This document shows, piece by piece, positions 8,641 through 62,993 of a stretch of 64,000 nt of DNA. Position numbers and translations under genes: made by a program. The first letter of the stretch is position 1. Each line of letters starts with the position of its first letter. The notes beneath the pieces are model-generated. The model was not told the DNA's origin and made no database searches. It saw only the letters and a program-made list of their open reading frames with translations. This stretch comes from Loxodes magnus (taxonomy: Eukaryota; Ciliophora; Karyorelictea; Loxodida; Loxodidae), in the NCBI GenBank assembly GCA_946699065.1, contig CAMPDV010000208.1, forward strand, positions 124,001-188,000, in the 5' to 3' direction.

Positions 8641-8674
8641 TTTAAATTTATTATATTTTATTTAACTTCATTCA

Positions 8675-10039
8675 TCACACTATTCTTAAAGTCTTGTAAC
8701 CCAAGTTTACTATATCGACTCTCAATAATAAAAGGTTAGGTGATTCAACTATAAAAGAATAAGCAAATCTATCTCTTGTTTTAAATGCTGATAAATAAAA
8801 TGAATTATGTTTAAATTCTATTTATTATCATTATTGATTGATTCTTTTATATATCTTTCTTGAATATTCTTCTTTATAAGGATTTATTTCTCCTCCACCG
8901 ATAATTAGAGGCTCAAGTAATACTAAAGGAAATTAAACAGTTTCAGGAAGATTTAAATGACATTTATTTCATATATCGCTCTATATATTATATTTTCATA
9001 TGTCATTTAAAATTTATTCGTTTTAGTTCATTCCTCCAAACGAATAAATATTTTATTCACTTTTATCTGCTGCTAATGTCTAACATGCTATTCCAAAAGG
9101 AAACTAAGAACAATATTATCACTTATTTTAATTTCCTATCTTTAATTTTTCCACTGTTCTTAATATTTATCTTGAATCAAATTTTCCTCCTACTACATAT
9201 ATATAATCTTAAGCTGCTGCTATTCCAAATACAAACCTTCCTTAGTTAAGACTAGATAGTTTTATATTATTTCCTTAAAAGTCAAATTATCAAGTATCTT
9301 TTAATCCTTATTTATTTATTTATCCTCCAACTAAATATAATTTATTTCTATATTCAATACTTCTACTAATACTGGGCACTTAAATATTTATTTAAACTTA
9401 TTTAATTTATTCTGTTTCTATATTAAATAATCGAAGAATTTAAGTATCCCATTAAAAGAAATGAATATATTTACTTTCCTTTATATTCTACTAAGTTTAA
9501 CTTACTAATTTTATGCTTGATTTAATACTTCTTTAATCAATCATTTTAGATTTTAGTTGGTAATATATTTATTTTATTGCATTTGAGGAATATTTTTAGG
9601 TGACAGAAATTAAGGCTTACAGATGGACATTATATTGCTAATTATTCTTTATTTTCTATTATTTTAGTAATGTAATATGTTATGAGGGTATGCAATTTAT
9701 AAACTAATAGCTAACTATTTATTGCATCTAAGTAATTTTATTTTACTTCTAATCTATTTACTTCTTCATTTAATTTAATTTCTATTAGCATTACTTTCTA
9801 ATATTAATCTACTCCTATTATTATTGTAATATCTCTACCCATTCATCATTTATAGGTAAATCTTCAAATCTAAAGTGAAATACCTTATAACAAATGCAGC
9901 AGCTGATTTGATTCTATAAATAGTACTAAGTCTTTAAGCATAAGCTACAGAAAGTATGAGAACAAGGTAAGACAGTAGGAATAGCGTTAGTTAGGTTAAA
10001 AGGATAAGAGCAGTATTAGCATAGGTAGATGACTTACAT
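8675..10039 (-). CDS. RING/coiled-coil/kelch protein, copy 1
   Basis: The minus-strand ATG at 10039 opens 454 codons (TAA/TAG as Gln, TGA as Trp), ending at a tandem TGA TGA. Residues about 7-55 form a RING finger: CQYC, then CSHTFCSLC, then CCIC, spaced as C-x2-C...C-x-H-x2-C-x2-C...C-x2-C. A Gln/Lys-rich coiled coil follows (about 70-190), then kelch repeats with YLVGG, YVVGG and SFGG strands. Five TGA codons fall on the conserved kelch Trp positions (DTWQF, NKWQY, NDIWKYN, DIWNKC, QQWQQ). RING-kelch proteins are usually E3 ubiquitin ligases whose kelch domain recruits the substrate; that role is inferred here. The length equals that of the array copies, and the RING half is almost identical to them while the kelch half differs. 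A structured RNA-like element lies about 0.6 kb upstream. Short standard-code ORFs on the other strand are antisense noise. Confidence 0.88.
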
Positions 10040-19964: not shown

Positions 19965-20261
19965 GCAATCTTTCAACTGAGATTGACTAAAAATCTGGCC
20001 CCAGAAAGTATCCATAAGCGAAGAACCGAAAAGTACCATGGTAGGAACCAAGAGAGAAGATAAAGATTGAAGAAGCATCAAGTAACATATTGATGAAAGA
20101 TGCCAGATACCAAGGTCTCTTAGAAAGTATTCCGATAACGGCCCTATAAAAGAAAAGACTCGCAAATGAATGCTAGATCTATGGAAGATTTAAGGAATAA
20201 ATTTTTTTGACTTAAAAAATTTTATTAAAGAGAGGCGCGTCATTGATTTTCTACGCGCTCA
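19965..20261 (+). ncRNA. structured RNA-like element, copy 2
   Basis: A family member not next to a RING-kelch gene, 0.2 kb downstream of tRNA-Pro. It shares AGTATCCATA, GTAGGAACCAAGAG, TTGATGAAAGATG and TTCCGATAACGGCCCTAT with the array copies. The apical hairpin is TGG-TAGGAA-CCA here, whereas copy 1 has TTGA...TCAA, a compensated change. The closing 3' hairpin is GCGCGT...ACGCGC, a perfect stem that differs in sequence from other copies. A standard-code ORF of 69 codons on the opposite strand is judged incidental. Isolated copies argue that the element is an independent unit rather than a leader of the kelch genes. Confidence 0.6.
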
Positions 20262-20289
20262 CTAAACTTCATTATTTATTTATTAAAAC

Positions 20290-21110
20290 TTTAAAAATTT
20301 CTATTTTATGTACTGGCCGTTTGAAATACCAGCATATAATTATTTTCAGATAGAGAATCTTATATACGAGGTCATTACTCTTATTCTATTGAGTCGTTTA
20401 GTATTTAAGGGCTATTCTGGCTTAGGTTTTCTAGAACTTTAAATTTCCTTTAAAGTCTATTCCATTTATAAAACTTCTCCTTAAATTTGCTACAGGGACG
20501 GTTTGAGCTAAATCCTACCATAGTATAGATTTTTCAGATTTAAAAAAATTCTATAGTGCTGGTATAATCTTAAGTCGTTGATAGAGCTTATTAATAACCT
20601 TTATTAAACTATGATTCTCCATCTAAAAAGGTAGAGACCGTTGGAAACTTCCTGTTTAGAGTTATAATACATTTTGGAAAGGTCTGCTATTTCTTAATTG
20701 CCATTAAAAAAAAAGAATACATATTTAATATCTATTTTGAAATAGATGTAATTATAGCTAAGTTTCGTCATACTGTTTTTGAGCAGCCTCTTTATGAATA
20801 TAACAAGAATACTCTGCTTATCAGTTTCTTCAAACAGATGCAACCCATGAGTAATAAGAATATTCTCTGTAAAAATTGATTTCAAAGATCAAAGGATGAA
20901 AATCCCCTAAATCATATTTCTCCAAGGTCTAGGATACAATTTGAATCTTCCTAAGATTGATATAAAACCATATAAAGCAAACGTTTACTTCTACCTTTAT
21001 TTTCTTATTTAAACACTACCTTATAAAATAAAAGAATATAATATATTTTATATTTCTTTAACAATGCCATTAATATGTCTTATTAGAGTTTTTATTATCG
21101 CTGTTATATT
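20290..21110. CDS. coding-like region, strand unresolved
   Basis: A stretch with GC above background and few TGA codons in several frames. The T-rich plus strand suggests that a gene lies on the minus strand, where for example MENHSLIKVINKLYQRLKI and WQDLAQTVPVANLRRSF can be read. A plus-strand frame (ESYIRGHYSYSIESF) is also open. No domain is recognised on either strand, so strand and limits are left open. A 63-codon standard-code ORF here is a by-product of the same composition. Confidence 0.3.
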
Positions 21111-21445
21111 TAATCTTACTCTCTCAATGACCTATAGCATCAACAGATTTTTTCAATTAAATTTGAAATATTAAGTTAACTTAGTGCTTATCAAAGAAAT
21201 ATATTAAAAAAAATTTTAATCTAATGTAATTTCCTTTATTTAGAAAATGAGATTTATAAAAAAATAAAAAAATAACGAAAATAGGAAAAATTTAAAAAGG
21301 AAATCTACATCACTTCTTTTTTTAAACATCATGTAGCATAATTTTTTTAATAATTTTATTTGATGTTGTATAAATTTTGAAATGATATACAGTAAATTTA
21401 ATTAATCTTTAAAAATATATAAAAATTATAAAATTATAAGCAATC

Positions 21446-24309
21446 TCATCTTTCAAATGCTATGACATACTTCTATAGAGGGCAATAACTTTTCATATTT
21501 TTCAAGTATTTTATATACACTTTACTAGAATTATCTAGTCTTTTTCTTAACATCTCGTCAATCCTTGCATTTACCTTTTCCCTTTATAAATTTGTCTAGA
21601 TTTTTTCAGAATTTCCTTTCTTGCTTTAAACTATTTATTTGCTAGTATATCTTTCAGTTGCATATTATTATTATTCTGATGGAACATCTACAACTACCTA
21701 CTCTATAATCGCCTTTGATACTTCATTGTTCTACTTCTTCACTTCTTTAGTTACATTTTTCAAATCTTCTTCTTCTTCTTCTTCTTCTTCTTCTTCTTCA
21801 TCTCCACCTTACTCACTTTCACAACTAAATTTCTAAATATTAAAATACTTACATATCCATTCTCCTATATCGAAAGCTCTTGAGATAAAATTTATACATC
21901 TCTATAAGATAACGTTTAAATAGCCTAGCTTCTCCTCTAATAAGTCTTTTACAGTTCTCCAAGCTGTTTGCTTAACTCCTAAATAAATCTCAACTCTATG
22001 GCTAGTACATCTGTCATATGATCATTCTTTCAGTAATTGAACTAAACATTTACTTTCTCTTCCTACGAAGAACTATTTTCTTCTGGAAAATACATTCTAA
22101 ATTCTTTTAATAAGCTGTTAGGAATAAATCCATTATTAATTATATTCATCAGTTACTATATCACTTTTCTACATTGTTACTCATCACTTTTGCTCACAAT
22201 TTATTTACGATCGAACGATTACAAATCATATCATTTACAATTTTATATATTTCTGATATTTACAAACGCTATCTTATTATTTTTCTAGACTGCTTATACT
22301 ATTTCCTACATATCTTTATTACTTAGTATCTTCCATACGACATCATTTTAAACTTTCTCCTTCTAAAACTTTATAGTGAAGCTATCGTTTTCTTACTAAT
22401 CAATTATATGACTTTTCTATATCTATATCCATATAAGATGACTCTATTTTGAGTGTTTCTAGATTTAAAAGAGTTAACTTGCTTTAATAAGATAATTGTA
22501 CTAATTGTTAATCTAATATGTCTTAAAATTAATAGACTCTTTATCATTTAGCATGCTATATACATATCAGTTATATAGAACTGTAAATCCTCCATAGTTT
22601 GTCATTTCTTAGTATATCTGATTATTGTCCAAATTCTTATTACTAAAAAGTTAAAAAACGAAGAAAGAACTAAAGGGAATAATCAAAGCGTATTGTTATA
22701 TAAACTCTTTAAGACCTTTTCTTTCCAAATATAGACCAAGTGAGGCTAATTGGAAACTATTAAGTTAGAAATCTCTAGCTTATTACTTTAAGTAGTTATA
22801 GAGTAAAACCATTTAGCATTATATAAACTCTGCTTCTTATCCTTCTTCTATACTAAAGTTAGACTAGTTCTTTAAAGCTGTAAATTAATCATGTAAGAAG
22901 TCTTAAAATGATTGGGTGTTAAAGATATGAAATATTAAACCTTTTATTATCTTTTTATTGTTTTTCTTTTATTTTTTATCATATAGTTCTTTAAGTATCT
23001 TCATTTGAGTTAGTTGTTACTAAACGTTAAATTTACTCTTTTCCTGTATATGTATTTTGCTTTAAATTAACTCTATTTTTTCACTGAAAATGTTTTCTTA
23101 GAGTAAATAAGGCTTCAACTCACTTTCATAAACTAGTTTTTTATACTCTTTATGAACTATATCCTTTTATTGACCATAAAATAGTGAATAAGTAGAGTTA
23201 GTAGGTTACTCTATCGTAAGTTAGTTCTATCTAGTTTGAATGTTTGGCTAACTATTTTAGTGTATATCTGTATGATTATTAGTTTAGTTAAAAGCTTCAT
23301 TTTAGTTTAGTTCTTATTTAATCTTTGTACTGGTATACTCTGATAGTAATGATGCAAGGTATAATTTTTCTTAATTTGATAGATACTAGAACTCTTCACT
23401 TAAACTGTTAATAATATCTTCTAAGTTTGACTTAGATAGAAGATTAGTAATTTATTATGCTTAAGTGTCTTACTATTCACTATGTTCTTCTATTTCTTAT
23501 AAGCAAATCATATTTCTAATTATCATCTTCACTTGATGAATCATTATTTACTCATAGTCTCTAACTTCTTTACCTTAACTTATTTATTCCATTACTTCAT
23601 AGGGTAAATATTAGTAGTTCTTATACTCACTTTCTAGTATATAAACTACTTGTTATTTAATAGCTTCAATAGGTTGCATATAGTGTTATATTTCACTTAT
23701 ATCTTCATTCACATATAGAGAGTCACATGTTAAGACTATAAACTTATTTTACTTTAGTGTTCTCAGAATTAACTTTAGAATATTATATATAAATACTTCC
23801 ATCTACTAACAAGTAAAATTATTACTTTTCTACTTTCTGTTTTATAATAGGGTTTTTAAGGGATGCATATTCTATCAAGAAGTCATTTCGTATAGGTTAA
23901 AAATGAGATTGTTATTAGATAGTTGTGATATAAGATGATGTCTCATTTATTAAGCGTTGCATGATTTATCATTCTTTATTTACACTTTTAATTACTCTAA
24001 GTCTTTATATACTTCAAGTTTTAATAAAGTTTATTTATTTTATTTCTAAGCATGCAAATAAAGCTCTATCCTTTATTCCCCAACTACCAAAGTTCTATTA
24101 ATATGACAGTTGCTAAGCCCTAAAGATTTGAAAGGAAAGTTAATTAGATAATTTTAACTTGCTTTATCAAACAGGCTCTATAGCTTTTTAAGTGACTAAT
24201 GACTGTTTTATATTTATTGAACTAAATGATTTATACTAGATGAGTCTGTTCTTTGGTTTAAAGTGCTAACTTACTGTATGTTTGAAGTATCATCTTCTCT
24301 CTGCTTCAT
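21446..24309 (-). CDS. large protein of unknown function, one short intron
   Basis: The ATG at 24309 begins MKQREDDTSNIQQVSTLNQR. The frame stays open for about 2.46 kb with TGA used only where Trp is plausible (YNWYV, CKWYD, NYWKN) beside TGG (VVWKI). At 21833-21852 a 20-nt segment GTAAGT...TTTAG interrupts it. Removing it gives exactly 948 codons to TGA at 21446-21448 and joins the body to an acidic tail, GGD followed by 11 Glu, then a Lys/Glu-rich helical C terminus (NARIDEMLRKRLDNSSKVYI). Before the intron lies a helical stretch, ELRFIQELSKQLGELQKTYQ. The central part looks alpha-helical and mixed in charge, with no signal peptide or membrane span. No family is recognised. It is the longest gene here and the best non-kelch support for the recoded reading. 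Confidence 0.65.
21766..21798 (+). repeat. (CTT)11 microsatellite within coding DNA
   Basis: Eleven CTT units, read on the minus strand in frame as 11 GAA (Glu) codons near the C terminus of the large gene. Confidence 0.95.
21833..21852 (-). other. probable 20-nt spliceosomal intron
   Basis: On the minus strand the segment starts GTAAGT and ends TTTAG, is pure A/T between, and sits exactly where the large gene must change frame by two bases to enter its poly-Glu tail. Introns this short are known from ciliates. A 28-nt alternative ending at the next AG would not restore the frame. Confidence 0.6.
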
Positions 24310-26651
24310 ATTATATCTATTACTATAATTTTCCCATATATACTATATTTCTACAAGAAATGGAAATAATTTTGTAAATAGCCCTTTTTATTTATACTGC
24401 TAAAGTAAGATTCTAGTAACTAAACAAGAAATAGAGAGTAAATTTTAATTTACATTGAAATATTTTAAAGACAAATAATTAGGTTATTATAATGTTTAGT
24501 CTATTTAAAATAATATTACTTGCTTTTCTCTTATATTTTAAGTTTATTTTTTATAATTTTAAACATTTCTTTAGTGATAATTTTATTAAAAAGTTACATT
24601 CAAAAGTTTTTAACTTTTAAAGTTTGTTTTTTTAAGTAGTTTGTAAGTGAATCAGTTTTTATTTTTATTTAAAAATAATGAAATATATAGTAATTTTAAG
24701 TTAATAGATAAATATGTTCTGCTTAAGATAATTACATATTATTTAATTAGATTTTGATATCTAGATAAGTTTACATGGAACGATAGATAATATTTCCCTA
24801 TTGAATTAATATAAGTATATAAAACAAAGGCTTATAATAATTCTTTAAAGATACACTACAAGTTAAATAAAAATAATCTTTAAAGTTAATTATTTTAATT
24901 TTTTTATTAAATATATGTGAAAGTTTTATTTATTTTACTTATAAGCTAACTAAGAAACATATATAAGCTTAAAAATAGATAAATTTCATATAAATTTAGT
25001 ATCATAAATCCATATAAAAAAGCAAAGTTAAAAATTATGAAGATAAGAATAGGAAAGATATGCTTTTGAAGATTTACAGAAACCCTAAATTTTGTTAATG
25101 TTTAGTACTCTTTTGTAAATAAAATAAAATAAAATAAAATAAAAGTAGCTTCTTATATCAGATAAATTTTTGCTTATATTTTTAAACTTTATTGTACTAA
25201 ATGATGTATTTAAAATTCTTATTTAGTGAGAAAATTTCAAATTAAAACAAAAAATTTTTAAGTTTTTTAGAAAAGAAAGCAATAAACAATATTTTAAATA
25301 AAAAATAATAAAGAAATTTAAAGTTAACATAAAAATGCAAGAGAATAAGTCTAATTTTTTTATCATAATTTAGTCTTCTGTAAATATCTAGTCCAATGAA
25401 TTAGATAAAGAATAAAATAATAAAATTTAACATATAGTCAAAAACATTCAATTTTAATTAGAAAATCTATTAATTAAATTACGAAAATAAAAAAGTGAAA
25501 GGGTAAAGCAAAGTTGCTTACTCCGGAAAAATAGTTTTATTTAAATACTTAATTATATTATTAAAATGTTATAAGGTATAGTCTAATTAATTTTAATAAT
25601 AAAAATTTTGATATAATAAGTGTTATAATCTTATTTAATTACAAAAGCAAAGCATAAGTAATAATTAATATTTAAAATATAAATTTAACTTATTATATAA
25701 AGAAATAAATTAAATATTATAGATAATTTAAAAAATAATAACATAGAATTTTTTATAAAATTTAACTATTTAAAAACTTTTAAATTTAGAAATAAAAAAA
25801 TATTTAATTAAATTTTTTTTTTTATTATATAATTTTTTTTTATTTTAGAATATTGAAACAAAAATAAAAATAATAAAAAAATAAAATAAAATAGAATTCT
25901 TGATTATTTTGCCTTTAAATTTCTCACAAGATAAAATTATATTTATTTTAAGTAAATTCTTCTTTTTATTTTGAAATGACATTTTGATAAATTAAAGGTT
26001 TAAATATGAAATATTTTACTTTTTATTTTAAATGACATTCATTTATATTGTTTAAATATTGTTTAGTACAATAAAAAATTGAAAGCAAAATAAATGATTA
26101 AATAAAATGTTTATATAAAATCCAAACATTTATTTAAAATATATAATGCAAAGATCTTAAGTTCACAATAAAGTAATTGAAATTAAAAATCCATTTAGAT
26201 ATTATTTAACAAATCAGAGAAAAATAAAAATTTATATATCATCATGAAAATGTTTATAATTGATGTATTAAAAAATAAAAATGTTTAGAAAATTAATATA
26301 AAATTCCAAAACAATTATAAATTTATAAGATTATTTCTTATAAATACTTTTTATGAATTACTTATTATTCTCCAAAGTATAACTTTTTATTTTTATTTTA
26401 TTTTTATCATTTTTAGATATTTCTAAGTAAATTTAGTTTATTTAATTTAAATAAATATTAATTTAATCTTTAAATATACTAATTTAGAATATTTTTAGAG
26501 ACAAAATTAAAAAAACTTTTATGTTTTTAGCAAAATTAATCTAAATTTAAGAAAAATTATTATATAATAAAAAAGTGGCTTTTAATAAACAACAAATCTC
26601 TCTTAACATATATCTTAAAATAAGAACAAATAAATAAATAGACTATATTAT
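24310..26651. other. AT-rich spacer with an AAAAT repeat
   Basis: 2.3 kb of A/T-rich DNA upstream of the large gene. It holds a short pentanucleotide repeat (AAAAT, four full units, 25117-25144) and several A/T homopolymer-rich runs. I see no gene. Confidence 0.5.
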
Positions 26652-26955
26652 AGAGCGCGTAGCATTCTTAATGGTACCCAGCTTTTAAATTAATTTTATT
26701 TAATGTTAATAAAATTTCTCCTTGGAAGTTTCCTCCAGTGCTTCACTCCTTTGGGAATTCTGTCTTCTAATAGTGCATGGTCGAAGCAATGCCCCAAGAG
26801 ACCTAATCTTCTAGCATCTTTCAACATCCATTACTCAATGTCATCAGTTCTTTCCTCTTGGTTCCTGACGAGATTCTTCTTCAGTTATCGCCTCTGAAGT
26901 ACTTTCTTATGCTATGTGTTAAATTAATCTCAATTGGAGGATTGCTCCTCCCTAT
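26652..26955 (-). ncRNA. structured RNA-like element, inverted copy
   Basis: The only member on the minus strand. Reading the minus strand it shares GAAAGTACTTC, CGTCAGGAACCAAGAGG, GTTGAAAGATGC, AGGTCTCTTGG and the AAATTTTATTAAC segment with the plus-strand copies, and ends in the ACGCGCTCT arm of the 3' hairpin. The central CCG/CGG hairpin is lost or replaced, so this copy is the most diverged in the middle. It stands alone, with no RING-kelch gene within several kb. A 64-codon standard-code ORF on the plus strand overlaps it and is considered spurious. Confidence 0.55.
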
Positions 26956-27092
26956 TTAAAATCTATAATAACATGTTCTGACCGAACAAAAACCTTAACA
27001 AAAAGAATAAAATTAATTTCAAGAATAGTTTGTACAATTAGTTCATCAAATAATAACAAATCTTTAATTAAAGTAAAATAATAAAAATAAAA

Positions 27093-27600
27093 ATGCTAGA
27101 ATAAATATTAGATAAAATAGACGAAGAACTAAACCTTTAATTTTCATCTATAGATGAGGCTATAAATCAGATATAAGCTCAAATGGTTCAAAAAATAAAC
27201 GAGATTGATTAATAATTTAATCAAATTCCTCAAATTTTTTAATTTTAATTTTAATTTTCGATATTCTAATGTTAAATAAAAGAACTGTAGGAAAAACAGA
27301 CATTATAATCGGAAATTATTAAAATAACTACGGGAAATAAGGATGTGCGCCTATGGAATTAGAAAAAACGATATGTAATATTATATAGGAAGAAAAATTC
27401 GTTGCTACATATGTTAAAAGCAATATAATTACAAAAGATGCTGAAAAAACTTAGAGAATTATAACAAAAATAAATAAGTCATTTTGAAAGATTTATTTAA
27501 AACTGACCATCAAAAACTGGACTAAACCTATAATAAGAAATTCTATGATTCGAGTTACAACTTACCTAAAAAAATAATTTATCACTAATTTATTTCTTTA
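27093..27600 (+). CDS. Q-rich coiled-coil gene, relative of the array gene
   Basis: The ATG at 27093 begins MLEQILDKIDEELNLQFSS, then INQIQAQMVQKINEIDQQFN, matching in order the coiled coil of the gene at 41514-42319 and its array copies (SIDESLNKIQSQIV, IDKQFNEVPQMFQF). Further on, in a +1 frame, GRKIRCYICQKQYNYKRCWK matches the zinc-knuckle-like segment of the array gene, but the array His is Tyr here. The frame change falls in an A-run near 27314-27320 and could be a short intron, an indel or an error. With a metal-binding residue lost and a frame change this may be a decayed copy. The 3' end is uncertain. Confidence 0.45.
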
Positions 27601-28269: not shown

Positions 28270-28977
28270 ATATTCTTTGAGGTATTTCAACCTTTCCAGC
28301 AAACCTCTAAGTTACTCTAGAGACTAAATAAAAAGTTGTAAGTTTCTATAACTTATCTTCTTACTAATCACTTGATCCTTGATTTATTCTTTTGCCTAGA
28401 TAATATTTTATTTTTTCTTTTATATATTTCTTATTTAGTTGAATAGAATATTTCTTTTTCTCTTATTAGTTTAAGTTGATGTTTTTTCTTCTTTTTATTC
28501 TCCTACTTCTTCTAGTGATTTCAAAACTTTTATTTAAGTTGTGAAATTTCTAACATTTTTTCATAGCGGCGTTAGAGAGTTGCAGAATAATACCTTTGCG
28601 CTTATCATTTAGCTTTAAATCTTGCATTTGTTGTTCTTCTTCATAAAATCATTAAGCCTTTTCCTTACTCATTTAGTTCATTTTAATGCTAAATTTTTAA
28701 TGATTTCTCTATTTATTCTATCCCATTTCTCCTTTTTTTCTGTTTCTATTGTTTTGATCTATAAATAGCTATTCTAGTTTTTTTTGAAATATTTTAAAAA
28801 GGTGTTAAGGTTTCTTTCTTAGGTCATGAGTTTCTATTCTATTTCAAGTTTTTCCATTAGTTTCCTGTTGTCTTTACTCATTTTTAACATCTTACTGAGG
28901 TCAAGCAACACTTTATTCAGCTAATTATAGTTTATTTACTCCTCTGTGGTACAATTAGTGATTTTTGAGTGCTTCAT
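28270..28977 (-). CDS. coiled-coil gene or pseudogene
   Basis: A minus-strand ATG at 28977 opens MKHSKITNCTTEEQINYNQ, followed by LLDLSKMLKMSKDNRKLMEK and a long charged helical run. Near 28690 the best-looking frame changes (MSKEKAQ, then EEEQQMQDLKLNDKRKG), and it changes again near 28560. All frames are rich in Lys, Glu and Asn, so the choice is weak. Coding-like composition also extends upstream to about 29110. The repeated frame changes suggest a pseudogene or several short introns. No family is recognised. Confidence 0.35.
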
Positions 28978-35137: not shown

Positions 35138-35722
35138 ATGAAAAATGAAATACGTGTTTTCAGAGTTAGACCAAGGAAAAAAATGTAAGGAAATGCTTTC
35201 AATGTGGTAGCATTTGATATTTATATCGTTAATGCAATAAGTTTAGGTAGGTTCAACATTAATATTGGAAAAAGTAATATTGGCTTCAGCAGAACTACCT
35301 AGCAGAGTAAAGAGCTAGAACAAGATTTTAAAAAGCAAAGTTAAACAAAATGTATTGTAACCCGAATGGTTATGTATATAAAGTTAAGGTTTAAAACCCA
35401 TGAAACTACCCTCAAGGCAACAAATGTCCCTAGTTGCAAAGCTGGAAGGAAAACCAGTTTGATAAACCCATCCAAAAGTAGATAGGATGTAAAAAAGTCA
35501 GTTCAAGTTCTAATTGAAAACCTTTCTAACGTTTATTAACTTTATAACTTTATAAATATCTAAAATAATAATATAAAAATGATACTATTTAATTTTAAAT
35601 TGCTAAAAAGAATAATTTTTAATTAAAATATATATAAATAACTGTAAGTGTAATTTAATTTAAAGAAATATAAACTAATTAAATTAAAAAACTATTAGTA
35701 AAAGCATAAATAAAATAGATGA
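35138..35722 (+). CDS. unknown gene running into the duplicated block
   Basis: The ATG at 35138 begins MKNEIRVFRVRPRKKMQGN, then FNVVAFDIYIVNAISLGRFN, and later CKAGRKTSLINPSKSRQD, with Cys, Pro, Gly and Thr well represented, so coding up to about 35540 looks real. The frame then crosses the left border of the 2.1 kb duplicated block (35544) and ends at TGA 35720-35722, so the last 60 residues come from repeat DNA. This parallels 6151-6508, where another gene is cut at the same border. No TGA lies within the unique part. The function is unknown. It is probably a 3'-truncated gene. Confidence 0.5.
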
Positions 35723-37680
35723 TATAAATTAAAAATATTTAAACTAAAAAATAAATTAGTATTGTTATTAAAATTAAATGTAACTATACATATTTAAATA
35801 AAAATATCAACTATATTTATATATGTATAAGAATGATATTTAAAAGTAGGTTCTAATATTAAAATAATGAAGCATTAATTTGGTTATAATTTGATCTATG
35901 ATTATAATTTGGAGGTATTAATAAAATGAGTTGATATAATATTTGAAATTAGTATGTTTTTTAGAATTGATGACTATTTGATATGGAAAAAATGTATAAA
36001 ATAAATGGTTTGATTTAAGTGTAATAATATATTTGAATAATGATGAATTAGATGTAATTTGGATATAATTTGAGTATATTATAATTTGATAATTTGATTA
36101 TTATTATATGATTATTTGGATTGATTAAAAAATAGTAGATATAAGTTAAAATAGTATATTTACTTAAAATAATTAATTTGATATAGTGTTGTAAATATCT
36201 GATATTTATATTTATTTAATTAAAAGTTTAATAATTTATTCTAATTTAAAATATATTTAAATATCAATAATATTGTTCCTTTTTACTTACTTCAATTTAT
36301 ACTCTAAATAATATTATATAATTTAAATAAAACTTATCTGTAACCAAAATTTATAATTATATAAGTTTTAAACTTAAGAGTATATAATGGTTTAATTTAT
36401 TTAATTAGATATAAATTAAGAAATTAAATATTTTAACTAATTTAAATTAGTTTATTTTTTAATTCCTTTTATATTCAAATAAACCTATTATTATCAAAAA
36501 ATCTAATCATATTCAGATAATACAATTAGCATCAACAAAATTACTTTATATTAATGTATAAATAGATAGCTTAATGTTACCATTTATGTTTATCAACATA
36601 TTCAAATTTCTTATCAACTAATTTCTTTCTAACTATAAAACAGAGCTAATTTTAATCTTTATTGTAATCAATATAGAATCTTTATGTGCACGTAATAACT
36701 TTTATTTTAGGGAAATTATAAACAATTTTATATACTGCTTAGGAAATATTATTGCTAATAACACTTCATATCAATGATATTTAAATTATAATTAAATTAT
36801 CGTAATATCCACCAAGAAATTCATTAAACTATCAAGAAGTTTATCTATCTATTAAAAAAGAAGCTTCTTAATAATATATTATATAACTTTAGAGCACTCA
36901 ATATAGTAGTAATCATAATATTTTCACTTATAAATTTTCTTTTTTGTGAGCATTTATATAACTTCATTGTTCATGCTCTTTTTAAAATACTCGTCTTTAC
37001 TTTTTCTTAAGTAAAAAAGATATAAGTAAAATGAATTTAAATAGCTATTTAGACAAAAGCAACATTTAATATGTTTTAGATAAAATATTTTCTAACTTTA
37101 ATCTTTGTTAATCCAATAAAGAATTATTTTATCACTAAAACTTACTTTTACCTTTAATTATTAAAGTAATATAATAGCTATAAATATTTATATCTATATG
37201 TATTATTAGATTCTTTTTGCTTATTTTTAGTATTATTTAGATAATAAACTTTTTAAGATAATAATTTAGCTAACTGTTTATTAGATCACTTTTTTATAAA
37301 TTTTTATTATTTAAATAATTCTTTTAAACTATAATATAATAACTAAATCATAAGTAGATAGCATCAACTTTAAAACTCAAATATTTTTATTTTATACTAA
37401 ATTAAAACATACTTTCAAATTCATTATGCACATCATTATGTGCATCATTACTTAATATTAATATGTCTCTACTAATTACACAATATTTAATTATATCAAA
37501 TATATTTATATCAACCCTTACAATCAACACCATCACTGTCTAACTATCAGACTAACATTAAATCAACTTACAATATATAACATTCTAAAAATATTACTAC
37601 ATAATCATTACTTCTTATTATACCTAAATCATTAAAACTTATAAAATATAATAATATAATATTTATTATTAAAAAATACT
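35544..37680. repeat. 2.1 kb duplicated block, copy 2
   Basis: Nearly identical to 6509-8640, including the C-depleted tract (here about 35850-36180). Identity is close to complete from about 35870 to 37660 and then drops sharply on entering the kelch half of the adjacent gene. The flanking genes at the left border differ, so the block was duplicated as a unit. Confidence 0.9.
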
Positions 37681-37706
37681 TTAAATTTATTATATTTTAT
37701 TTAACT

Positions 37707-39077
37707 TCATTCATCACTTAATCTTAAAGTCTTATAACCCAAGTTTACTATATCGACTCTCAATAATAAAATATTAGAGTTGTCAGGAATAAAAGAATAA
37801 GCAAATCTATCTCTTGTTTTAAATGCTGATAAATTACAAGAATTATGTTTAAATTCTATTTATTATCATTATTGATTGTTTCTTTTATATATCTTTCTTA
37901 AATTTTCTTTATTTCTTAGATTTCTAAATCCTCCAACTATAATTAGAGGCTCAAGTAATACTAAAGGATAAAAAGCAGCTACAGGAAGATTTAAATTACA
38001 TTTATTTCATATATCGCTCTATATATTATATTTTCAAATGTCATTTAAAATTTATCCATTTTAGTTTATTCCTCCAAACGAATAAATATTTTATTCTACT
38101 TTATCTGCTACTAATGTCTAGTTTATTATTCCAAAAGTAAACTAAGAACATTATTATCATTTACTCTAACTTCATACTTTTAATTTTTCTACTGTTCTTA
38201 AAGGTTTACTTTAATCAAAAATTCCTCCTACTACATAAATATAATCTTAAGCTGCTACTATTCCAAATTAAAATCTTCCTTAGTTAAGACTTGATAGTTT
38301 TCTACTATTTCCTTAAAAGTCTAATTATCAAGTATCTTTTAATCCTTATTCATTTATTTCTCCTCCAACTAAATATAATTTATTTCTATATTCAATACTT
38401 CTACTAAAACTAGGAACCTAAGTATTTATTTAAACTTTTTAAATTTATTCTGTTTCTATATTAAATAATCGAAGAATATAAGTATCCCATTAAAAGAAAT
38501 GAATATATTTACTTTCCTTTATATTCTACTCAGCTTAAATTATTTATTTTTATTCTTGCTATATATTTCTCTAATCAATCATGTTAAGTTTTATCTGCTA
38601 ATATATTTATTTTATTGTATTTGAGGAATATTTTTAGGTGATAGAGACAAAGGCTTACAGATGGACATTATATTTCTAGTCATTCTTTAGTTTCTATTAT
38701 TTTAGTAATGTAATATGTTATGAAGGTATTAAATTCAAATATTAGTAGCTAACTCTTTGCTATATCTAAGTAATTTTATTTTACTTCTAATCTATTTACT
38801 TCTTAATTTAATTTAATTTCTATTAGCATTACTTTCTAATATTAATCTACTCCTATTATTATTGTAATATCTCTACCCATTCATCATTTATAGGTAAATC
38901 TTCAAATCTAAAGTGAAATACCTTATAACAAATGCAGCAGCTGATTTGATTCTATAAATAGTACTAAGTCTTTAAGCATAAGCTACAGAAAGTATGAGAA
39001 CAAGGTAAGACAGTAGGAATAGCGTTAGTTAGGTTAAAAGGATAAGAGCAGTATTAGCATAGGTAGATGACTTACAT
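37707..39077 (-). CDS. RING/coiled-coil/kelch protein, copy 2 (array edge)
   Basis: ATG at 39077, 456 codons to TGA 37707-37709, with the same domain order as copy 1: RING (CQYC, CSHTFCSLC, CCIC), coiled coil, kelch repeats. The kelch half differs from both copy 1 and the array genes at many positions (for example SFGG-INQNGQ against MNQNEQ and MNQNAQ), while the RING half is essentially identical to them. In-frame TGA again sits on the kelch Trp positions, plus one extra (KVWSQS). A one-base deletion just before the end changes the last residues (TLRLSDE instead of TLRIK), which suggests that the end of the kelch domain is tolerant. The tandem array begins inside this gene at about 38805, so it is a mosaic of a unique kelch half and an array-type RING half. 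Confidence 0.87.
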
Positions 39078-39534
39078 TTTATTATAAAGTTAATAAATGT
39101 AAAAGCTAAAAGTGTAAATATAACAGTTTAGATTAGATTATTACTATTACTATGATAAACTAGCTTATTAATATTACCTCTAATACTAATGTAACTAATC
39201 TATTTATAATTTATTACTTACTTTAAATATTATAATACATTACCTTATATTCTCTTTTTATCTATTTTATATATAACTAATATTAAATAGAAATTATAAA
39301 GATTCTTTAATAAAAAGATAAATTAAAAAATTATTACAAATAAATAATCTGATATTAAGACAAAATTAAAATCCTTAGATAACTTATTTAATCACTAAAG
39401 ATATATAAAAGTAAATGTATTATATCAATAATTTAAGAATTGTAATATATTAACTAATTAAATTAAAAATATAATATATTTAATTTGATAATTAATATTA
39501 GAATATTTAAAAATAAAGTAAATAGATGTAAAAT

Positions 39535-39790: not shown

Positions 39791-40367
39791 CTTTTTGGTA
39801 AATATTGTTTATAACTATGAGAATAATCTATGAATGTTGATCTACAATAATAAAATAGGAAAGATTAATAATTTAAATAAATTAATTGTATATTTTAATC
39901 TAATTAAAGGAAATGTATCTTCATTGTAAAAACTTTTATCAAATTTAAACTGTTATTTAAATAGAATAAGATACAGAAAATAAATTAAAGATGTTAAATT
40001 AAAACTATGCTAATCAATAAAATCCTAAAAATCTAATATCAAACTAAATAAGTTAAGGATAACAATAAATAATCCAAAATTAAGATATTATTCAGTTCAA
40101 ATCAAATTTACCACTCAATCCATTTTGTAAATTATTTATAAAATTTAATAAATTTATGTTAAAATGTAACATTTTTAATTTTTTACAATCATTTAATTTA
40201 ATGATACAAAAATAATTAATTTTAATATTTCTTTATTAAATCTTTCGCTTTATAAAAATATAATTCAAAAATATTAATCAAATTATATATTATAATTAAG
40301 CCAAATAATAATCCTTACTACTTATTAGTTTTATATTTTCAAACTATTATGTATAAATCAATAGATG

Positions 40368-40661
40368 CCAATTCTCCAACTCAAACTAACTTGAACTCTG
40401 GTACCAGCAAGTATCCATAGGTGAAGAACCAATCAAAAATCTTGTTAGGAGCCAAGAGAAGAGAAGACAAGATCGAAGAGGCATCAAGTAGTATTAATGA
40501 TGAAAGATGTAGATACTAAGGTCTTGGAGAAGCATTCCGATAGCGGCCCTATAATAAACTCACAAGGGAATGCTAGCACTGTGGAAGACTTCAGCAAGGA
40601 ATTTTATTAACTTTAAAAATCTTTATCAAAGAGCTGCGCCCGCCTGAGGTGCTATGCGCTC
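40368..40661 (+). ncRNA. structured RNA-like element, array unit 1
   Basis: This family member carries GAAGAACC, AATCTTGTTAGGA, AATGATGAAAGATG, GCATTCCGATAGCGGCCC and GGGAATGC. GCATTCC pairs with GGAATGC, AGGTCTT with AAGACTT, and the element ends in a GC-rich hairpin (GAGCTGCGC ... GCGCTC). Against the unit-2 copy I count eight substitutions in about 290 nt, far more than in the surrounding unit DNA. It lies 1.3 kb upstream of the divergent RING-kelch start at 39077. No polymerase III boxes or T-run were recognised. Confidence 0.62.
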
Positions 40662-41513
40662 AATAATCGTATTAATTTATAAACTTTTTAATAAATATTT
40701 AATGCTTTATTTATAAATATTACTAATCTATTTATAGAGTTAAGATATCTTCTATATGTAAAATAACTTAACAACATTGCCTAAAAATTTACTAGAGTAG
40801 TGCTAGTTTTTTGCAAGTTAATTTAAAACCTTCAAATAATATATTGAGTATAAAAGACATAAATAACATTAACTTTAAATATCTAAAAATAACATAAAAA
40901 TGATATAGTTTAATTTTAAATTATTAATAGATGTAATTTTTAGTTAAATTATATACATAAAAAATGCCTGTAAGTAGAATTAATTTTAAATATATATCAA
41001 CTATTTTAATTGAATATATAATTTGAAAAAGCTTAAATAAAGCTAATGAAATAAATAAAAAGAAATGTTTTAAATTAAAGTATTAAGTAAATATTGATTG
41101 AATATTTATTAAAATAAATCAAATTATACATGCTTAAATTATAAATTATTAATAAAATTAATTTTACTAATAGATTAATTTAAAATGTAAACTTATATAT
41201 GTATATTTAAGATATTTCAAAAGTTATTTAATTATAAAAATAAATAAATACTACAATTTTAAATTTTTTTATTTATTATAAATTTTATTATTTTCTAGCT
41301 TTTAATAAATATAATTATAAACATAATTTTTTAATATTTTAGAAAAATAATTTAGATACTTAATTCAAATTTTATATTATTGATATTATATATTTCTAAA
41401 TCCAGAAAGAAAAGGGAAATCTATAAATTAAATTAGTACTTTCATTTACATGTTTTATATAAAAGGATAAAGGATAAAATTAAGTTTATAGTCTTAGAAA
41501 AGAGCTCCAGGGT

Positions 41514-42319
41514 TCACTTATTTTTGTTCCTGCTCTTTCTTGAACTAAAGGACTGCGTAGGACTACATTAGTCCACCATCCTTGTCTCTCCCTCATCCAC
41601 TAATTATCGTTATAGTTTCTTCTTCCATTTTTATAAACATCGTTGTTTCTTGAGTTGTAGAATTTCTTTCTGTATACTTATCCTGTTCTTGTTGGTCATA
41701 TTCTGAAAAGTTAGTCTAATATTTATTACTTGTTAATTTTTTCAATTTCTTGTTTCTTCCAGCATTTTTTCCAGCAATGATTTTTCTAGCATAAATAGCA
41801 CCGAATCTTTTTGCGATAATAATTGATCTTATTTATTTCTTATTATTAGAATTCCGATTCGATTTCCATTTGGATATTTGATTATTAATCTTATTAATCT
41901 TATAATTTTTTAATTATTACTTGCTATTATTCTTGTTTTTCTTAAAGTTGCTTTATTTGATATTCAATTTAAGAAAAATGAAATTGGAACATTTGAGGGA
42001 CTTCGTTAAATTATTTATCAATTTATTCCAATTTAATTACTATTTACGATTAGATTTTATTTAATGATTCATCTATGGATGGGAATCATAGGTTTAATTA
42101 TTCCATTAATTTTTCTAGTAAGTTTTCTAAATTTTCTATTTTTTATCTTTGCTTTTTCAAGTCGTATTGGATATTTGATATCCTTTGCTGAACTGATTAT
42201 GCAAAGGATTCCTTAGATTATTAATCTTTATCTTATTAAGACTATTCTTCAATTAAATTAGGTTATTCTTATTTTTTCAAGTATTCGTTAATAGAGGTCT
42301 ATTATTTCTTAGGTGCCAT
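41514..42319 (-). CDS. Q-rich coiled-coil protein with zinc-knuckle-like motif, unit 1
   Basis: The ATG at 42319 begins MAPKKQQTSINEYLKKQEQP, then an Gln-rich coiled coil (ENLENLLEKLMEQLNLWFPS, DKQFNEVPQMFQFHFSQIEY, IKQLQEKQEQQQVIIKK) and at about residues 180-195 CYLCQKNHCWKKC, a C-x2-C-x3-H-x4-C pattern close to a zinc knuckle. After it, a GT...AG segment of 14 nt (41717-41730 region) would join to a basic tail (IQKEILQLKKQRCLQKWKKK, then CSPTQSFSSRKSRNKNK) ending at TGA 41514-41516. Without splicing the knuckle frame continues with a TGA. A relative lies at 27093. Zinc knuckles bind nucleic acid in Gag-like and other proteins; that role is only a guess here. Confidence 0.5.
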
Positions 42320-43330: not shown

Positions 43331-43702
43331 TATAATTTCATACTTTTTAAGTTGCTAAATAAATAAATATTATATAACATTTTTATTTTATATAATATTT
43401 TATTTCTTTCCTAACTCATTACTTTACATTGCAATAAACCAAAATTTGGGTACTTAGTCTAAAGTTATAGGTTAAAGTTTTCATATCAATACTGCTTAAA
43501 TATTTATTTTTAATAAGAAATTATTATTTCATTCTTTGTAATTCAATAAAATAAAGTTATATATAAGATATTATTAATTATCAAATTATTAACTACAAAA
43601 TACTTAATTACTAAATTATTAAATCATTAATATTTAAAATATAATATAATATTTATTTTTAAAAATACTTTAAATTAATTATATTTTATTTAACTTCATT
43701 CA

Positions 43703-45067
43703 TCACTTTATTCTTAAAGTCCTGTAATCCAAGTTCACTATATCCACTCTCAACAATAAAATATTAGAGTTATCAGGAATAAAAGAATAAGCAAATCTAT
43801 CTCTTGTTTTAAATGCTGATAAATTATAAGAATTATGTTTAAATTCTATTTATTATCATTATTGATTGCTTCTTTTATATATCTTTCTTTAAAATTCTTT
43901 ATTTCTTTGATTTTTTACTCCTCCAACTATAGTTAGAGGCTCAAGTAATACTAAAGGATAATAAGCAGCTTCAGGAAGATTAAAATGACATTTATTTCAT
44001 ATATCATTCTATATATTATATTTTCATACGTCATTTAAAATTTATGCATTTTAGTTCATTCCTCCAAAAGAATAAATATTTTATTCACTTTTATCTACTA
44101 CTAATGTCTAATTTATTATTTCAAAAGGAAACTATGAACAGTATTATCATTTGTTCTAACTTCCTATTTTTAATTTTTCTACTGTTCTTAAAAATTTACT
44201 TTAATCAAAAATTCCTCCTACTACATAAATATAATCTTAAGCTGATGCTAATCCAAATCCAAATCTTCCTTAGTTAAGACCAGTTAGTATTTTACTATTT
44301 CCTTACAAGTCAAATTATCAAGTATCTTTTATTCCTTATCCATTTATTTATCCTCCAACTAAATATATCTTGTTTCTATATTCAATACTTCTACTAAAAC
44401 TAGGAACTTAAGTATTTAATTTAACTTTTTAAATTTATTCTGTTTCTATATTAAATAATCGAAGATCTTAAGTATCCCAATCAAAGAAATGAATATATTT
44501 TGTTTCTTTTATATTCTACTCAGCTTAAATTATTTATTTTTATTCTTGCTGTATATTTCTCTAATCAACTATTTTAAGTTTTATCTGTTAATATATTTAT
44601 TTGATTGTATTTTAGGAGTATTATTTAATGACAGAAATTAAGGCTTATAGATGGACATTATATTGCTTATTATTCTTTAGTTCCTATTATGATAGCATTT
44701 TAATATGTTATGAGGAATTGCAATTTATAAACTAGTAGCTAACTATTTGTTACATCTAAGTAATTTTCTTTTGCTTCTAATCTATTTACTTCTTCATTTA
44801 ATTTAATTTCTATTAGCATTACTTTCTAATATTAATCTACTCCTATTATTATTGTAATATCTCTACCCATTCATCATTTATAGGTAAATCTTCAAATCTA
44901 AAGTGAAATACCTTATAACAAATGCAGCAGCTGATTTGATTCTATAAATAGTACTAAGTCTTTAAGCATAAGCTACAGAAAGTATGAGAACAAGGTAAGA
45001 CAGTAGGAATAGCGTTAGTTAGGTTAAAAGGATAAGAGCAGTATTAGCATAGGTAGATGACTTACAT
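43703..45067 (-). CDS. RING/coiled-coil/kelch protein, array copy 1
   Basis: 454 codons from ATG 45067 to a tandem TGA TGA (first TGA 43703-43705). RING finger with CQYC, PCSHTFCSLC and SCCIC; coiled coil rich in TAA/TAG (Gln) and Lys; kelch repeats with FFDWD, IYLVGGQ, IYVVGGI, IYSFGGM and TIVGGV strands. TGA encodes the kelch Trp in DTW-QFDL, NKW-QYC, NDVW-KYNI, NDIW-NKC and QQW-QQI, whereas TGG is used in NDEW and FDWD. The inferred role is an E3 ubiquitin ligase with kelch-mediated substrate binding. The 77-codon standard-code ORF on the plus strand at 44044-44277 is antisense to the kelch repeats and not a gene. Confidence 0.9.
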
Positions 45068-49692: not shown

Positions 49693-51057
49693 TCACTTTA
49701 TTCTTAAAGTCCTGTAATCCAAGTTCACTATATCCACTCTCAACAATAAAATATTAGAGTTATCAGGAATAAAAGAATAAGCAAATCTATCTCTTGTTTT
49801 AAATGCTGATAAATTATAAGAATTATGTTTAAATTCTATTTATTATCATTATTGATTGCTTCTTTTATATATCTTTCTTTAAAATTCTTTATTTCTTTGA
49901 TTTTTTACTCCTCCAACTATAGTTAGAGGCTCAAGTAATACTAAAGGATAATAAGCAGCTTCAGGAAGATTAAAATGACATTTATTTCATATATCATTCT
50001 ATATATTATATTTTCATACGTCATTTAAAATTTATGCATTTTAGTTCATTCCTCCAAAAGAATAAATATTTTATTCACTTTTATCTACTACTAATGTCTA
50101 ATTTATTATTTCAAAAGGAAACTATGAACAGTATTATCATTTGTTCTAACTTCCTATTTTTAATTTTTCTACTGTTCTTAAAAATTTACTTTAATCAAAA
50201 ATTCCTCCTACTACATAAATATAATCTTAAGCTGATGCTAATCCAAATCCAAATCTTCCTTAGTTAAGACCAGTTAGTATTTTACTATTTCCTTACAAGT
50301 CAAATTATCAAGTATCTTTTATTCCTTATCCATTTATTTATCCTCCAACTAAATATATCTTGTTTCTATATTCAATACTTCTACTAAAACTAGGAACTTA
50401 AGTATTTAATTTAACTTTTTAAATTTATTCTGTTTCTATATTAAATAATCGAAGATCTTAAGTATCCCAATCAAAGAAATGAATATATTTTGTTTCTTTT
50501 ATATTCTACTCAGCTTAAATTATTTATTTTTATTCTTGCTGTATATTTCTCTAATCAACTATTTTAAGTTTTATCTGTTAATATATTTATTTGATTGTAT
50601 TTTAGGAGTATTATTTAATGACAGAAATTAAGGCTTATAGATGGACATTATATTGCTTATTATTCTTTAGTTCCTATTATGATAGCATTTTAATATGTTA
50701 TGAGGAATTGCAATTTATAAACTAGTAGCTAACTATTTGTTACATCTAAGTAATTTTCTTTTGCTTCTAATCTATTTACTTCTTCATTTAATTTAATTTC
50801 TATTAGCATTACTTTCTAATATTAATCTACTCCTATTATTATTGTAATATCTCTACCCATTCATCATTTATAGGTAAATCTTCAAATCTAAAGTGAAATA
50901 CCTTATAACAAATGCAGCAGCTGATTTGATTCTATAAATAGTACTAAGTCTTTAAGCATAAGCTACAGAAAGTATGAGAACAAGGTAAGACAGTAGGAAT
51001 AGCGTTAGTTAGGTTAAAAGGATAAGAGCAGTATTAGCATAGGTAGATGACTTACAT
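49693..51057 (-). CDS. RING/coiled-coil/kelch protein, array copy 2
   Basis: Essentially identical to 43703-45067 (offset 5990): 454 codons, RING, coiled coil and kelch, with five in-frame TGA at kelch Trp positions. No disabling change was seen. The near-identity implies recent amplification or ongoing homogenisation. Confidence 0.9.
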
Positions 51058-55659: not shown

Positions 55660-57024
55660 TCACTTTATTCTTAAAGTCCTGTAATCCAAGTTCACTATAT
55701 CCACTCTCAACAATAAAATATTAGAGTTATCAGGAATAAAAGAATAAGCAAATCTATTTCTTGTTTTAAATGCTGATAAATTATAAGAATTATGTTTAAA
55801 TTCTATTTATTATCATTATTGATTGCTTCTTTTATATATCTTTCTTTAAAATTCTTTATTTCTTTGATTTTTTACTCCTCCAACTATAGTTAGAGGCTCA
55901 AGTAATACTAAAGGATAATAAGCAGCTTCAGGAAGATTAAAATGACATTTATTTCATATATCATTCTATATATTATATTTTCATACGTCATTTAAAATTT
56001 ATGCATTTTAGTTCATTCCTCCAAAAGAATAAATATTTTATTCACTTTTATCTACTACTAATGTCTAATTTATTATTTCAAAAGGAAACTATGAACAGTA
56101 TTATCATTTGTTCTAACTTCCTATTTTTAATTTTTCTACTGTTCTTAAAAATTTACTTTAATCAAAAATTCCTCCTACTACATAAATATAATCTTAAGCT
56201 GATGCTAATCCAAATCCAAATCTTCCTTAGTTAAGACCAGTTAGTATTTTACTATTTCCTTACAAGTCAAATTATCAAGTATCTTTTATTCCTTATCCAT
56301 TTATTTATCCTCCAACTAAATATATCTTGTTTCTATATTCAATACTTCTACTAAAACTAGGAACTTAAGTATTTAATTTAACTTTTTAAATTTATTCTGT
56401 TTCTATATTAAATAATCGAAGATCTTAAGTATCCCAATCAAAGAAATGAATATATTTTGTTTCTTTTATATTCTACTCAGCTTAAATTATTTATTTTTAT
56501 TCTTGCTGTATATTTCTCTAATCAACTATTTTAAGTTTTATCTGTTAATATATTTATTTGATTGTATTTTAGGAGTATTATTTAATGACAGAAATTAAGG
56601 CTTATAGATGGACATTATATTGCTTATTATTCTTTAGTTCCTATTATGATAGCATTTTAATATGTTATGAGGAATTGCAATTTATAAACTAGTAGCTAAC
56701 TATTTGTTACATCTAAGTAATTTTCTTTTGCTTCTAATCTATTTACTTCTTCATTTAATTTAATTTCTATTAGCATTACTTTCTAATATTAATCTACTCC
56801 TATTATTATTGTAATATCTCTACCCATTCATCATTTATAGGTAAATCTTCAAATCTAAAGTGAAATACCTTATAACAAATGCAGCAGCTGATTTGATTCT
56901 ATAAATAGTACTAAGTCTTTAAGCATAAGCTACAGAAAGTATGAGAACAAGGTAAGACAGTAGGAATAGCGTTAGTTAGGTTAAAAGGATAAGAGCAGTA
57001 TTAGCATAGGTAGATGACTTACAT
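55660..57024 (-). CDS. RING/coiled-coil/kelch protein, array copy 3
   Basis: Same 454-codon gene as in the other units (offset 11957 from copy 1). A C-to-T change at about 55759 on the plus strand (AAATCTATTTCTTG against AAATCTATCTCTTG) distinguishes units 3 and 4 from 1 and 2 and changes one residue near the C terminus. RING and kelch signature residues are intact. Confidence 0.9.
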
Positions 57025-61628: not shown

Positions 61629-62993
61629 TCACTTTATTCTTAAAGTCCTGTAATCCAAGTTCACTATATCCACTCTCAACAATAAAATATTAGAGTTATC
61701 AGGAATAAAAGAATAAGCAAATCTATTTCTTGTTTTAAATGCTGATAAATTATAAGAATTATGTTTAAATTCTATTTATTATCATTATTGATTGCTTCTT
61801 TTATATATCTTTCTTTAAAATTCTTTATTTCTTTGATTTTTTACTCCTCCAACTATAGTTAGAGGCTCAAGTAATACTAAAGGATAATAAGCAGCTTCAG
61901 GAAGATTAAAATGACATTTATTTCATATATCATTCTATATATTATATTTTCATACGTCATTTAAAATTTATGCATTTTAGTTCATTCCTCCAAAAGAATA
62001 AATATTTTATTCACTTTTATCTACTACTAATGTCTAATTTATTATTTCAAAAGGAAACTATGAACAGTATTATCATTTGTTCTAACTTCCTATTTTTAAT
62101 TTTTCTACTGTTCTTAAAAATTTACTTTAATCAAAAATTCCTCCTACTACATAAATATAATCTTAAGCTGATGCTAATCCAAATCCAAATCTTCCTTAGT
62201 TAAGACCAGTTAGTATTTTACTATTTCCTTACAAGTCAAATTATCAAGTATCTTTTATTCCTTATCCATTTATTTATCCTCCAACTAAATATATCTTGTT
62301 TCTATATTCAATACTTCTACTAAAACTAGGAACTTAAGTATTTAATTTAACTTTTTAAATTTATTCTGTTTCTATATTAAATAATCGAAGATCTTAAGTA
62401 TCCCAATCAAAGAAATGAATATATTTTGTTTCTTTTATATTCTACTCAGCTTAAATTATTTATTTTTATTCTTGCTGTATATTTCTCTAATCAACTATTT
62501 TAAGTTTTATCTGTTAATATATTTATTTGATTGTATTTTAGGAGTATTATTTAATGACAGAAATTAAGGCTTATAGATGGACATTATATTGCTTATTATT
62601 CTTTAGTTCCTATTATGATAGCATTTTAATATGTTATGAGGAATTGCAATTTATAAACTAGTAGCTAACTATTTGTTACATCTAAGTAATTTTCTTTTGC
62701 TTCTAATCTATTTACTTCTTCATTTAATTTAATTTCTATTAGCATTACTTTCTAATATTAATCTACTCCTATTATTATTGTAATATCTCTACCCATTCAT
62801 CATTTATAGGTAAATCTTCAAATCTAAAGTGAAATACCTTATAACAAATGCAGCAGCTGATTTGATTCTATAAATAGTACTAAGTCTTTAAGCATAAGCT
62901 ACAGAAAGTATGAGAACAAGGTAAGACAGTAGGAATAGCGTTAGTTAGGTTAAAAGGATAAGAGCAGTATTAGCATAGGTAGATGACTTACAT
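61629..62993 (-). CDS. RING/coiled-coil/kelch protein, array copy 4
   Basis: Fourth array gene, 454 codons, identical in layout to 55660-57024 (offset 5969). ATG at 62993; tandem TGA at the end. The downstream part of its unit continues to the window edge, so further copies probably follow. Confidence 0.9.

Follow-up and report, generated by a model that had tools for sequence, protein, structure and literature searches.

The window, by which we mean the whole 64-kb stretch of DNA analysed, is very AT-rich (GC 16-27% per 2-kb step). From about 37.6 kb to its end it consists of a tandem array with a unit of 5967-5990 bases, each unit carrying one RING-kelch gene on the minus strand, and a partial, older copy of the unit lies at 6509-10509; Tandem Repeats Finder, with a maximum period of 500, reported no repeats. 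A six-frame Pfam search of positions 1-44000 at E 0.01 returned kelch-type and RING families only, marking the window as gene-poor, and gene finding by codon usage, with a single gene as the seed, gave eight segments, six of them within kelch copies. The remaining two, 21440-22429 and 28601-28945, yielded no convincing gene on translation and were kept out of the argument about TGA. The former, on the minus strand, is GC-richer, with a strong period-3 signal, 11 consecutive Glu codons and seven TGA codons in the favoured frame, and holds no recognised gene. Rfam at the gathering threshold matched one tRNA-Pro and nothing else in the 64 kb, rRNA included, and this was also the sole tRNA found by ARAGORN; a search for tRNA-Trp(UCA) and tRNA-Gln(UUA/CUA), proposed in a preliminary description of the locus, came back empty for the window.

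Six RING-kelch copies are present (Table 1), and the one singled out in the preliminary description lies exactly at the coordinates given there, 43703..45067, as a single minus-strand frame from an ATG. They amount to three clearly distinct sequences: copy 1, copy 2, and copies 3 to 6, of which 3 and 4 have identical genes and 5 and 6 each differ from these by one base. Near the end of copy 2, a 1-base deletion shifts the last codons into another frame, which runs to a TGA at codon 457. The search with kelch and RING models suggested earlier gave, in copy 3, a kelch match to PF13418 (4e-19) and a RING match to PF13445 (5.3e-5) whose 23.6 bits fall slightly below the gathering score of 25.2, with the RING Cys/His residues at 7, 10, 26, 28, 31, 34, 47 and 50 all in place; kelch scores are strong in all six copies. 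Structure prediction, based on three sequences, was of low confidence (mean pLDDT 46.8) and served for a fold match alone, which retrieved kelch propellers such as KLHL12 (E 7.3e-10), so that Pfam and fold match both point to a propeller. The product is probably a RING-type protein with a kelch beta-propeller, a candidate ubiquitin ligase. With one query protein and a reach limited to close relatives, three pattern matches in viral contigs and 11 in genome contigs were obtained, none of them confirmed.

Table 1. Genes, codons and other features placed in the window
Feature	Position	Strand	Remarks
RING-kelch copy 1	8678-10039 (8672..10039 with TGATGA)	-	80% amino acid identity to copy 3
RING-kelch copy 2	37710-39077 (37707..39077 with end TGA)	-	83% amino acid identity to copy 3
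RING-kelch copy 3	43706..45067	-	454 sense codons, ATG start, single frame; Pfam RING and kelch; fold match
RING-kelch copy 4	49696-51057 (49693..51057)	-	tandem repeat of copy 3
RING-kelch copy 5	55663-57024 (55660..57024)	-	tandem repeat of copy 3
RING-kelch copy 6	61632-62993 (61629..62993)	-	tandem repeat of copy 3
TGA codon 250 (KDTWQFD), copy 3	44318..44320	-	Trp raises score in 5/5 families; Glu in aligned KLHL-type chains
TGA codon 307 (NKWQYC), copy 3	44147..44149	-	Trp raises score in 5/5 families; Trp in aligned solved kelch chains
TGA codon 348 (NDVWKYN), copy 3	44024..44026	-	Trp raises score in 5/5 families; Glu in aligned KLHL-type chains
TGA codon 357 (NDIWNKC), copy 3	43997..43999	-	Trp raises score in 5/5 families; Trp in aligned solved kelch chains
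TGA codon 404 (NQQWQQI), copy 3	43856..43858	-	Trp raises score in 3/5 families, lowers it in 2/5; weakest site
Tandem TGATGA, codons 455-456 of copy 3	43700..43705	-	probable terminator
Second coding-like frame	41489..42319	-	period-3 peak; in repeat unit; 3' end approximate
Diverged relative of second frame	27096..27561	+	protein-level matches 6.1e-11 and 2.6e-5

How are the three standard stop codons used in these genes? TAA and TAG are plainly sense: as the preliminary description had it, they occur dozens of times in frame, 38 TAA and 15 TAG making up 53 of the 454 codons of copy 3. TGA is also found in frame in all six genes, as described before, at codons 250, 307, 348, 357 and 404 of copy 3 and at the same five positions in every copy; copy 2 has an additional TGA at codon 302, where the other copies have Gly. 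TGG is used in the same genes as well, again as noted earlier, at codons 67 and 197, and TGA accounts for five of the seven Trp codons and for 5/454 codons overall (1.1%). Its raw count in the gene frame is not low (6/455, with 4 to 16 in the other five frames), and the oddity is one of placement rather than number. The ratio of A-ending to G-ending codons is also much the same for TGA and TGG (5:2) as for AAA and AAG (26:11), GAA and GAG (14:4) and TAA and TAG (38:15).

When all 20 amino acids were substituted for TGA in turn and the kelch family scores were compared, Trp came out on top in all five families, by 7.9 to 13.9 bits: 68.7 bits against 54.8 for Cys, the runner-up, in Kelch_4; 66.5 against 56.8 for Glu in Kelch_1; 61.5 and 58.5 against 51.7 and 48.1 for Tyr in the LZTR1-type and KLHDC2-type families; and 52.0 against 44.1 for Cys and Phe in Kelch_6. 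Placed at all sites together, every one of the 19 other residues scored lower in all five families. A site-by-site comparison of Trp with an unknown residue, over codons 187-454 in the same number of kelch families, refines the earlier claim that TGA sits where kelch repeats call for Trp. At 250, 307, 348 and 357 the claim stands, with the loss of Trp costing 0.7 to 7.5 bits in every family; site 404 is mixed, Trp adding 0.2, 3.0 and 3.7 bits in three families and costing 2.9 and 0.2 in the other two. Alignment with KLHL-type chains agrees at 307 and 357, where these have Trp, and not at 250 and 348, where they have Glu. With Glu substituted at 250, Trp still scores better in all five families, in Kelch_1 by just 0.1 bits; at 348 it does so in four, Kelch_1 favouring Glu by 1.4. 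Four sites therefore favour Trp and the fifth is doubtful. From these sequences, TGA is most likely read as Trp in the RING-kelch family, a use of UGA inside genes of the karyorelict type, found here in one gene family and with site 404 mixed. Nearly all of the evidence comes from this family, in three distinct sequences from one gene-poor window.

Could the TGAs be marks of dead genes instead? If the common ciliate code applied, with TAA and TAG as Gln and TGA as the stop, the kelch copies would be decaying pseudogenes in which TGG had mutated to TGA, perhaps in germline-limited DNA. The poverty of the window in genes, its repetitiveness, the weak constraint at the residue level, and the frameshift and non-Trp TGA of copy 2 all suit such a history, which we nevertheless consider unlikely. 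Past the first TGA, codons 251-447 carry 76, 53 and 76 substitutions between copies 1 and 3, 2 and 3, and 1 and 2, respectively, and no indel in 197 codons, against 16.5, 11.2 and 15.2 indels predicted from the flanks, where one indel occurs per 4.6 to 5 substitutions. The probability of zero indels is 6.7e-8, 1.4e-5 and 2.5e-7 for the three pairs, which are non-independent and whose flanks supplied 46, 19 and 30 substitutions and 10, 4 and 6 indels for the ratios. To judge by these alignments, the reading frame past the TGAs has been kept, and UGA used only as a stop, as in the common ciliate code (table 6), does not fit five in-frame TGAs unless the genes are dead. The placement of the TGAs points the same way: a neutral mutation model whose parameters were fitted to the sequences has TGG as the origin of 18% of newly arisen TGAs, so that the chance of all five arising there is 0.178^5 = 1.8e-4 (0.178^4 = 1.0e-3 without site 404), against five shared TGAs at Trp-favouring kelch positions, 404 being mixed. 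Not one of 60 simulated decays reached TGA at five of seven Trp codons within 6000 substitutions. For these two reasons, and not through selection on residues, which is weak, it is unlikely that TGG became TGA in a dead gene.

The pattern of conservation also argues against decay. The five TGAs and four Gly-Gly pairs are identical across the three sequences at all 13 codons, compared with 153 of 245 other domain codons (Fisher P 0.0027; at the residue level 174/245, P 0.0135), and high kelch scores persist in all copies. Differing codons change the residue in 88 of 121 cases between copies 1 and 3 (0.727), 72 of 91 between 2 and 3 (0.791) and 79 of 103 between 1 and 2 (0.767), where neutrality predicts 0.819, 0.812 and 0.821 (P 0.0045, 0.28 and 0.06); purifying selection at the residue level is weak overall. 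The intact RING is uninformative on this question, because codons 1-90 are identical DNA among the copies. Copy 2 may be at the start of decay, given that it has lost a base near its end and carries an additional TGA where the other copies have Gly.

If TGA is sense within the gene, where does translation end? Copies 1 and 3 close with a conserved tandem TGATGA, and the shifted frame of copy 2 meets its TGA at 457. Tandem UGA stops are described as enriched in ciliates that use UGA stops (PMC6879139, PMC10553269), and TAA, TAG and TGA as depleted before the true gene end in Condylostoma and Parduczia (PMC4967479). In the RING-kelch genes these three codons make up about one codon in eight (60-62 per copy) and are absent from codons 407-454 in all three distinct sequences, a gap of 48 codons; this depletion before TGATGA is suggestive of a gene end, although the argument is weak because other gaps are nearly as long (up to 34 codons in copy 1, 46 in copy 2 and 36 in copy 3). 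For TGA itself, the empty stretch covers codons 405-454, in this one gene family and with comparable gaps in stop-like codons elsewhere in the gene. Past TGATGA, indels reappear in two of the three pairs. The most economical reading is that TGA is Trp within the gene and a stop at its end; TGATGA probably ends translation, which would make TGA both. Of the earlier reading of all three stop codons as sense, TGA as Trp is thus upheld firmly at four sites and TAA and TAG are upheld as sense; at a plausible gene end TGA is the only one of the three to appear, and a double role is suggested for TGA alone.

We therefore favour the interpretation, with a probability of roughly three in four, that the window is nuclear DNA from an AT-rich protist, most likely a ciliate, in which TGA encodes Trp inside genes and stops translation at their ends, and in which TAA and TAG encode an amino acid, likely Gln. 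The ribosome would read TGA inside the RING-kelch gene as Trp, and the same codon, doubled as TGATGA, would terminate translation close to the 3' end of the mRNA, with distance to the 3' end deciding between the two meanings, by analogy with what has been proposed elsewhere (PMC4967479). That the code applies genome-wide would be an extension from one gene family, which carries almost all the evidence.

Which amino acid TAA and TAG specify is best approached through the same kelch models, here with ten residues tried rather than 20. Gln, the assignment implied by the tRNA search proposed in the preliminary description, scored best in three of five families and was not singled out: Arg and Asp beat it in one family each, while Lys, Ser and Glu mostly came within a few bits of it. 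Glu fell below Gln by 1.7 to 3.7 bits in Kelch_4, Kelch_1, Kelch_6 and the LZTR1-type and KLHDC2-type families and by 3.1 bits in NANM, and exceeded it in Kelch_3 (40.2 vs 31.6) and Kelch_2 (31.0 vs 25.4). Exchanges of TAA and TAG with other codons resemble the mutation spectrum and look neutral. Variation between TAA and TAG occurs in six columns and between TAA and TGA in none, a zero that is weakened by the rarity of A/G changes at second positions in general (11 columns, against 21 at third positions). Gln remains the most likely meaning by precedent, since neither the kelch models nor the exchange counts single out a residue. A code in which all three codons are sense and UAR specifies another residue, such as Glu in Blastocrithidia, seems improbable to us, more so than decay of the genes. 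The near-equal scores of Glu, Lys, Ser and Arg, the families in which Asp or Arg came first among the ten, and a high use of UGA, as in Blastocrithidia (0.72-0.85%, as given in PMC12153298), would all be compatible with it. They are set against the lead of Gln in three of five families, the description of UAR as Gln as the commonest ciliate variant (PMC10553269) and, for Glu, a UAR share of 53/454 that far exceeds the figures given for Blastocrithidia (UAA 2.06-2.28%, UAG 1.38-1.66%; PMC12153298). An ordinary ciliate code, with the TGAs lying in short introns, edited in the RNA or passed by programmed readthrough, is scarcely credible: UGA readthrough in yeast does insert mostly Trp (PMC4967479), but five consecutive readthroughs per message would presumably be inefficient, and the kelch match spans the sites (198-437 in the LZTR1-type model), with 307 and 357 aligned to Trp and no gap there.

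Dual use of UGA as Trp and stop has precedents, and among the codes without ordinary stops, that of Condylostoma is NCBI table 28 and that of Blastocrithidia NCBI table 31. The karyorelict nuclear code, NCBI table 27 (Loxodes, Parduczia; PMC11441545), resembles the reading proposed for the kelch genes, with UAA and UAG read through and UGA serving as Trp inside genes and as a stop near their ends, and the Loxodes genome is described in the same source as repeat-rich, like the repetitive window; the coding GC reported there for Loxodes magnus is 33.5%, compared with 19-28% by codon position here. Condylostoma likewise gives all three codons a sense meaning and depletes stops just before gene ends, but also stops at UAA and UAG (PMC4967479), whereas TGA alone stands where copies 1 and 3 probably end. 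The list of lineages offered in the preliminary description (karyorelicts, Condylostoma and Blastocrithidia) was sound as far as it went but incomplete, as all three codons are also reported as reassigned in Plagiopyla frontata (PMC10553269) and Amoebophrya (PMC6394959). Plagiopyla frontata matches the reading proposed here, with UAR predicted as Gln and UGA perhaps both stop and Trp, except that UGA as Trp is reported as rare (3/240 proteins; PMC10553269), unlike in the kelch genes. In Blastocrithidia all three codons are sense and UGA is a fairly common Trp codon, at the 0.72-0.85% quoted above (PMC12153298), but UAR is Glu and the stop is UAA (PMC12153298, PMC11687900), in contrast to the probable TGA stop here. 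Amoebophrya sp. ex Karlodinium veneficum is reported to read all three codons as sense, as here, yet its dynein genes strongly prefer UGG over UGA (PMC6394959), whereas TGA outnumbers TGG in the kelch genes.

UGA as both Trp and stop, with sense UAR, is thus already reported in karyorelicts, Condylostoma and Plagiopyla. What stands out is the share of UGA, a rare sense codon in the dual-UGA ciliates for which figures are given (0.120% of codons in Parduczia and 0.042% in Condylostoma; PMC4967479) against 5/454 in the kelch gene. It is tempting to suppose that UGA is the usual Trp codon in this lineage while also being the stop, heavily used both ways, but we hold this to be doubtful, and the high share of TGA among Trp codons may be a local peculiarity of one gene family. 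Should it extend genome-wide, it would represent an extreme form of context-dependent termination, possibly from an undescribed lineage. Codes without a dedicated stop are confined to a handful of lineages, and how the ribosome distinguishes a sense UGA from a stop UGA is unsettled; a genome with frequent UGA as Trp would strongly test the idea that proximity to the message end is decisive. At a practical level, the RING-kelch genes would be fragmented or overlooked if this assembly were annotated under the standard code or that of Tetrahymena.

A second coding-like frame lies in the repeat unit. Its predicted product is Gln/Glu-rich, probably a coiled coil, followed by a Cys-rich stretch, CYLCQKNHCWKKCWKK, and it had no match in Pfam or the PDB at the thresholds used. 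The 330 codons read contain 34 TAA, 6 TAG, 7 TGG and 2 TGA, so that TGG outnumbers TGA, unlike in the kelch genes. Its diverged relative has TGA for Trp after the last Cys, where the aligned second frame has TGG; this pair gives weak support to TGA as Trp, because the relative looks degenerate. The second frame (MAPKKQQTSINEYL...) also has a head-to-head relative starting MLPKKQQISLNKYL at about 42.47 kb on the plus strand, which makes the region an imperfect palindrome, 71-78% by arm.

Two further repeats were observed. One is dispersed, measures about 350 bases and occurs at 10631-10986, 19951-20292, 40353-40725 and 26630-26962, with 68-74% DNA identity for the first three; it is probably noncoding, because identity is just 29-43% among the protein-level matches listed. 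The 4-kb copies at 6509-10509 and 35545-39524 differ in an uneven manner. About 1.6 kb downstream of the kelch gene (6902-8501) shows one substitution and one gap, and codons 1-90 together with the 156 bases before the start show no differences, whereas codons 91-447 have 132 differing bases out of 1071 and no indels, the divergence ending just before TGATGA. This looks like exchange of a kelch cassette between paralogues, or like diversifying selection acting on the protein's recognition half.
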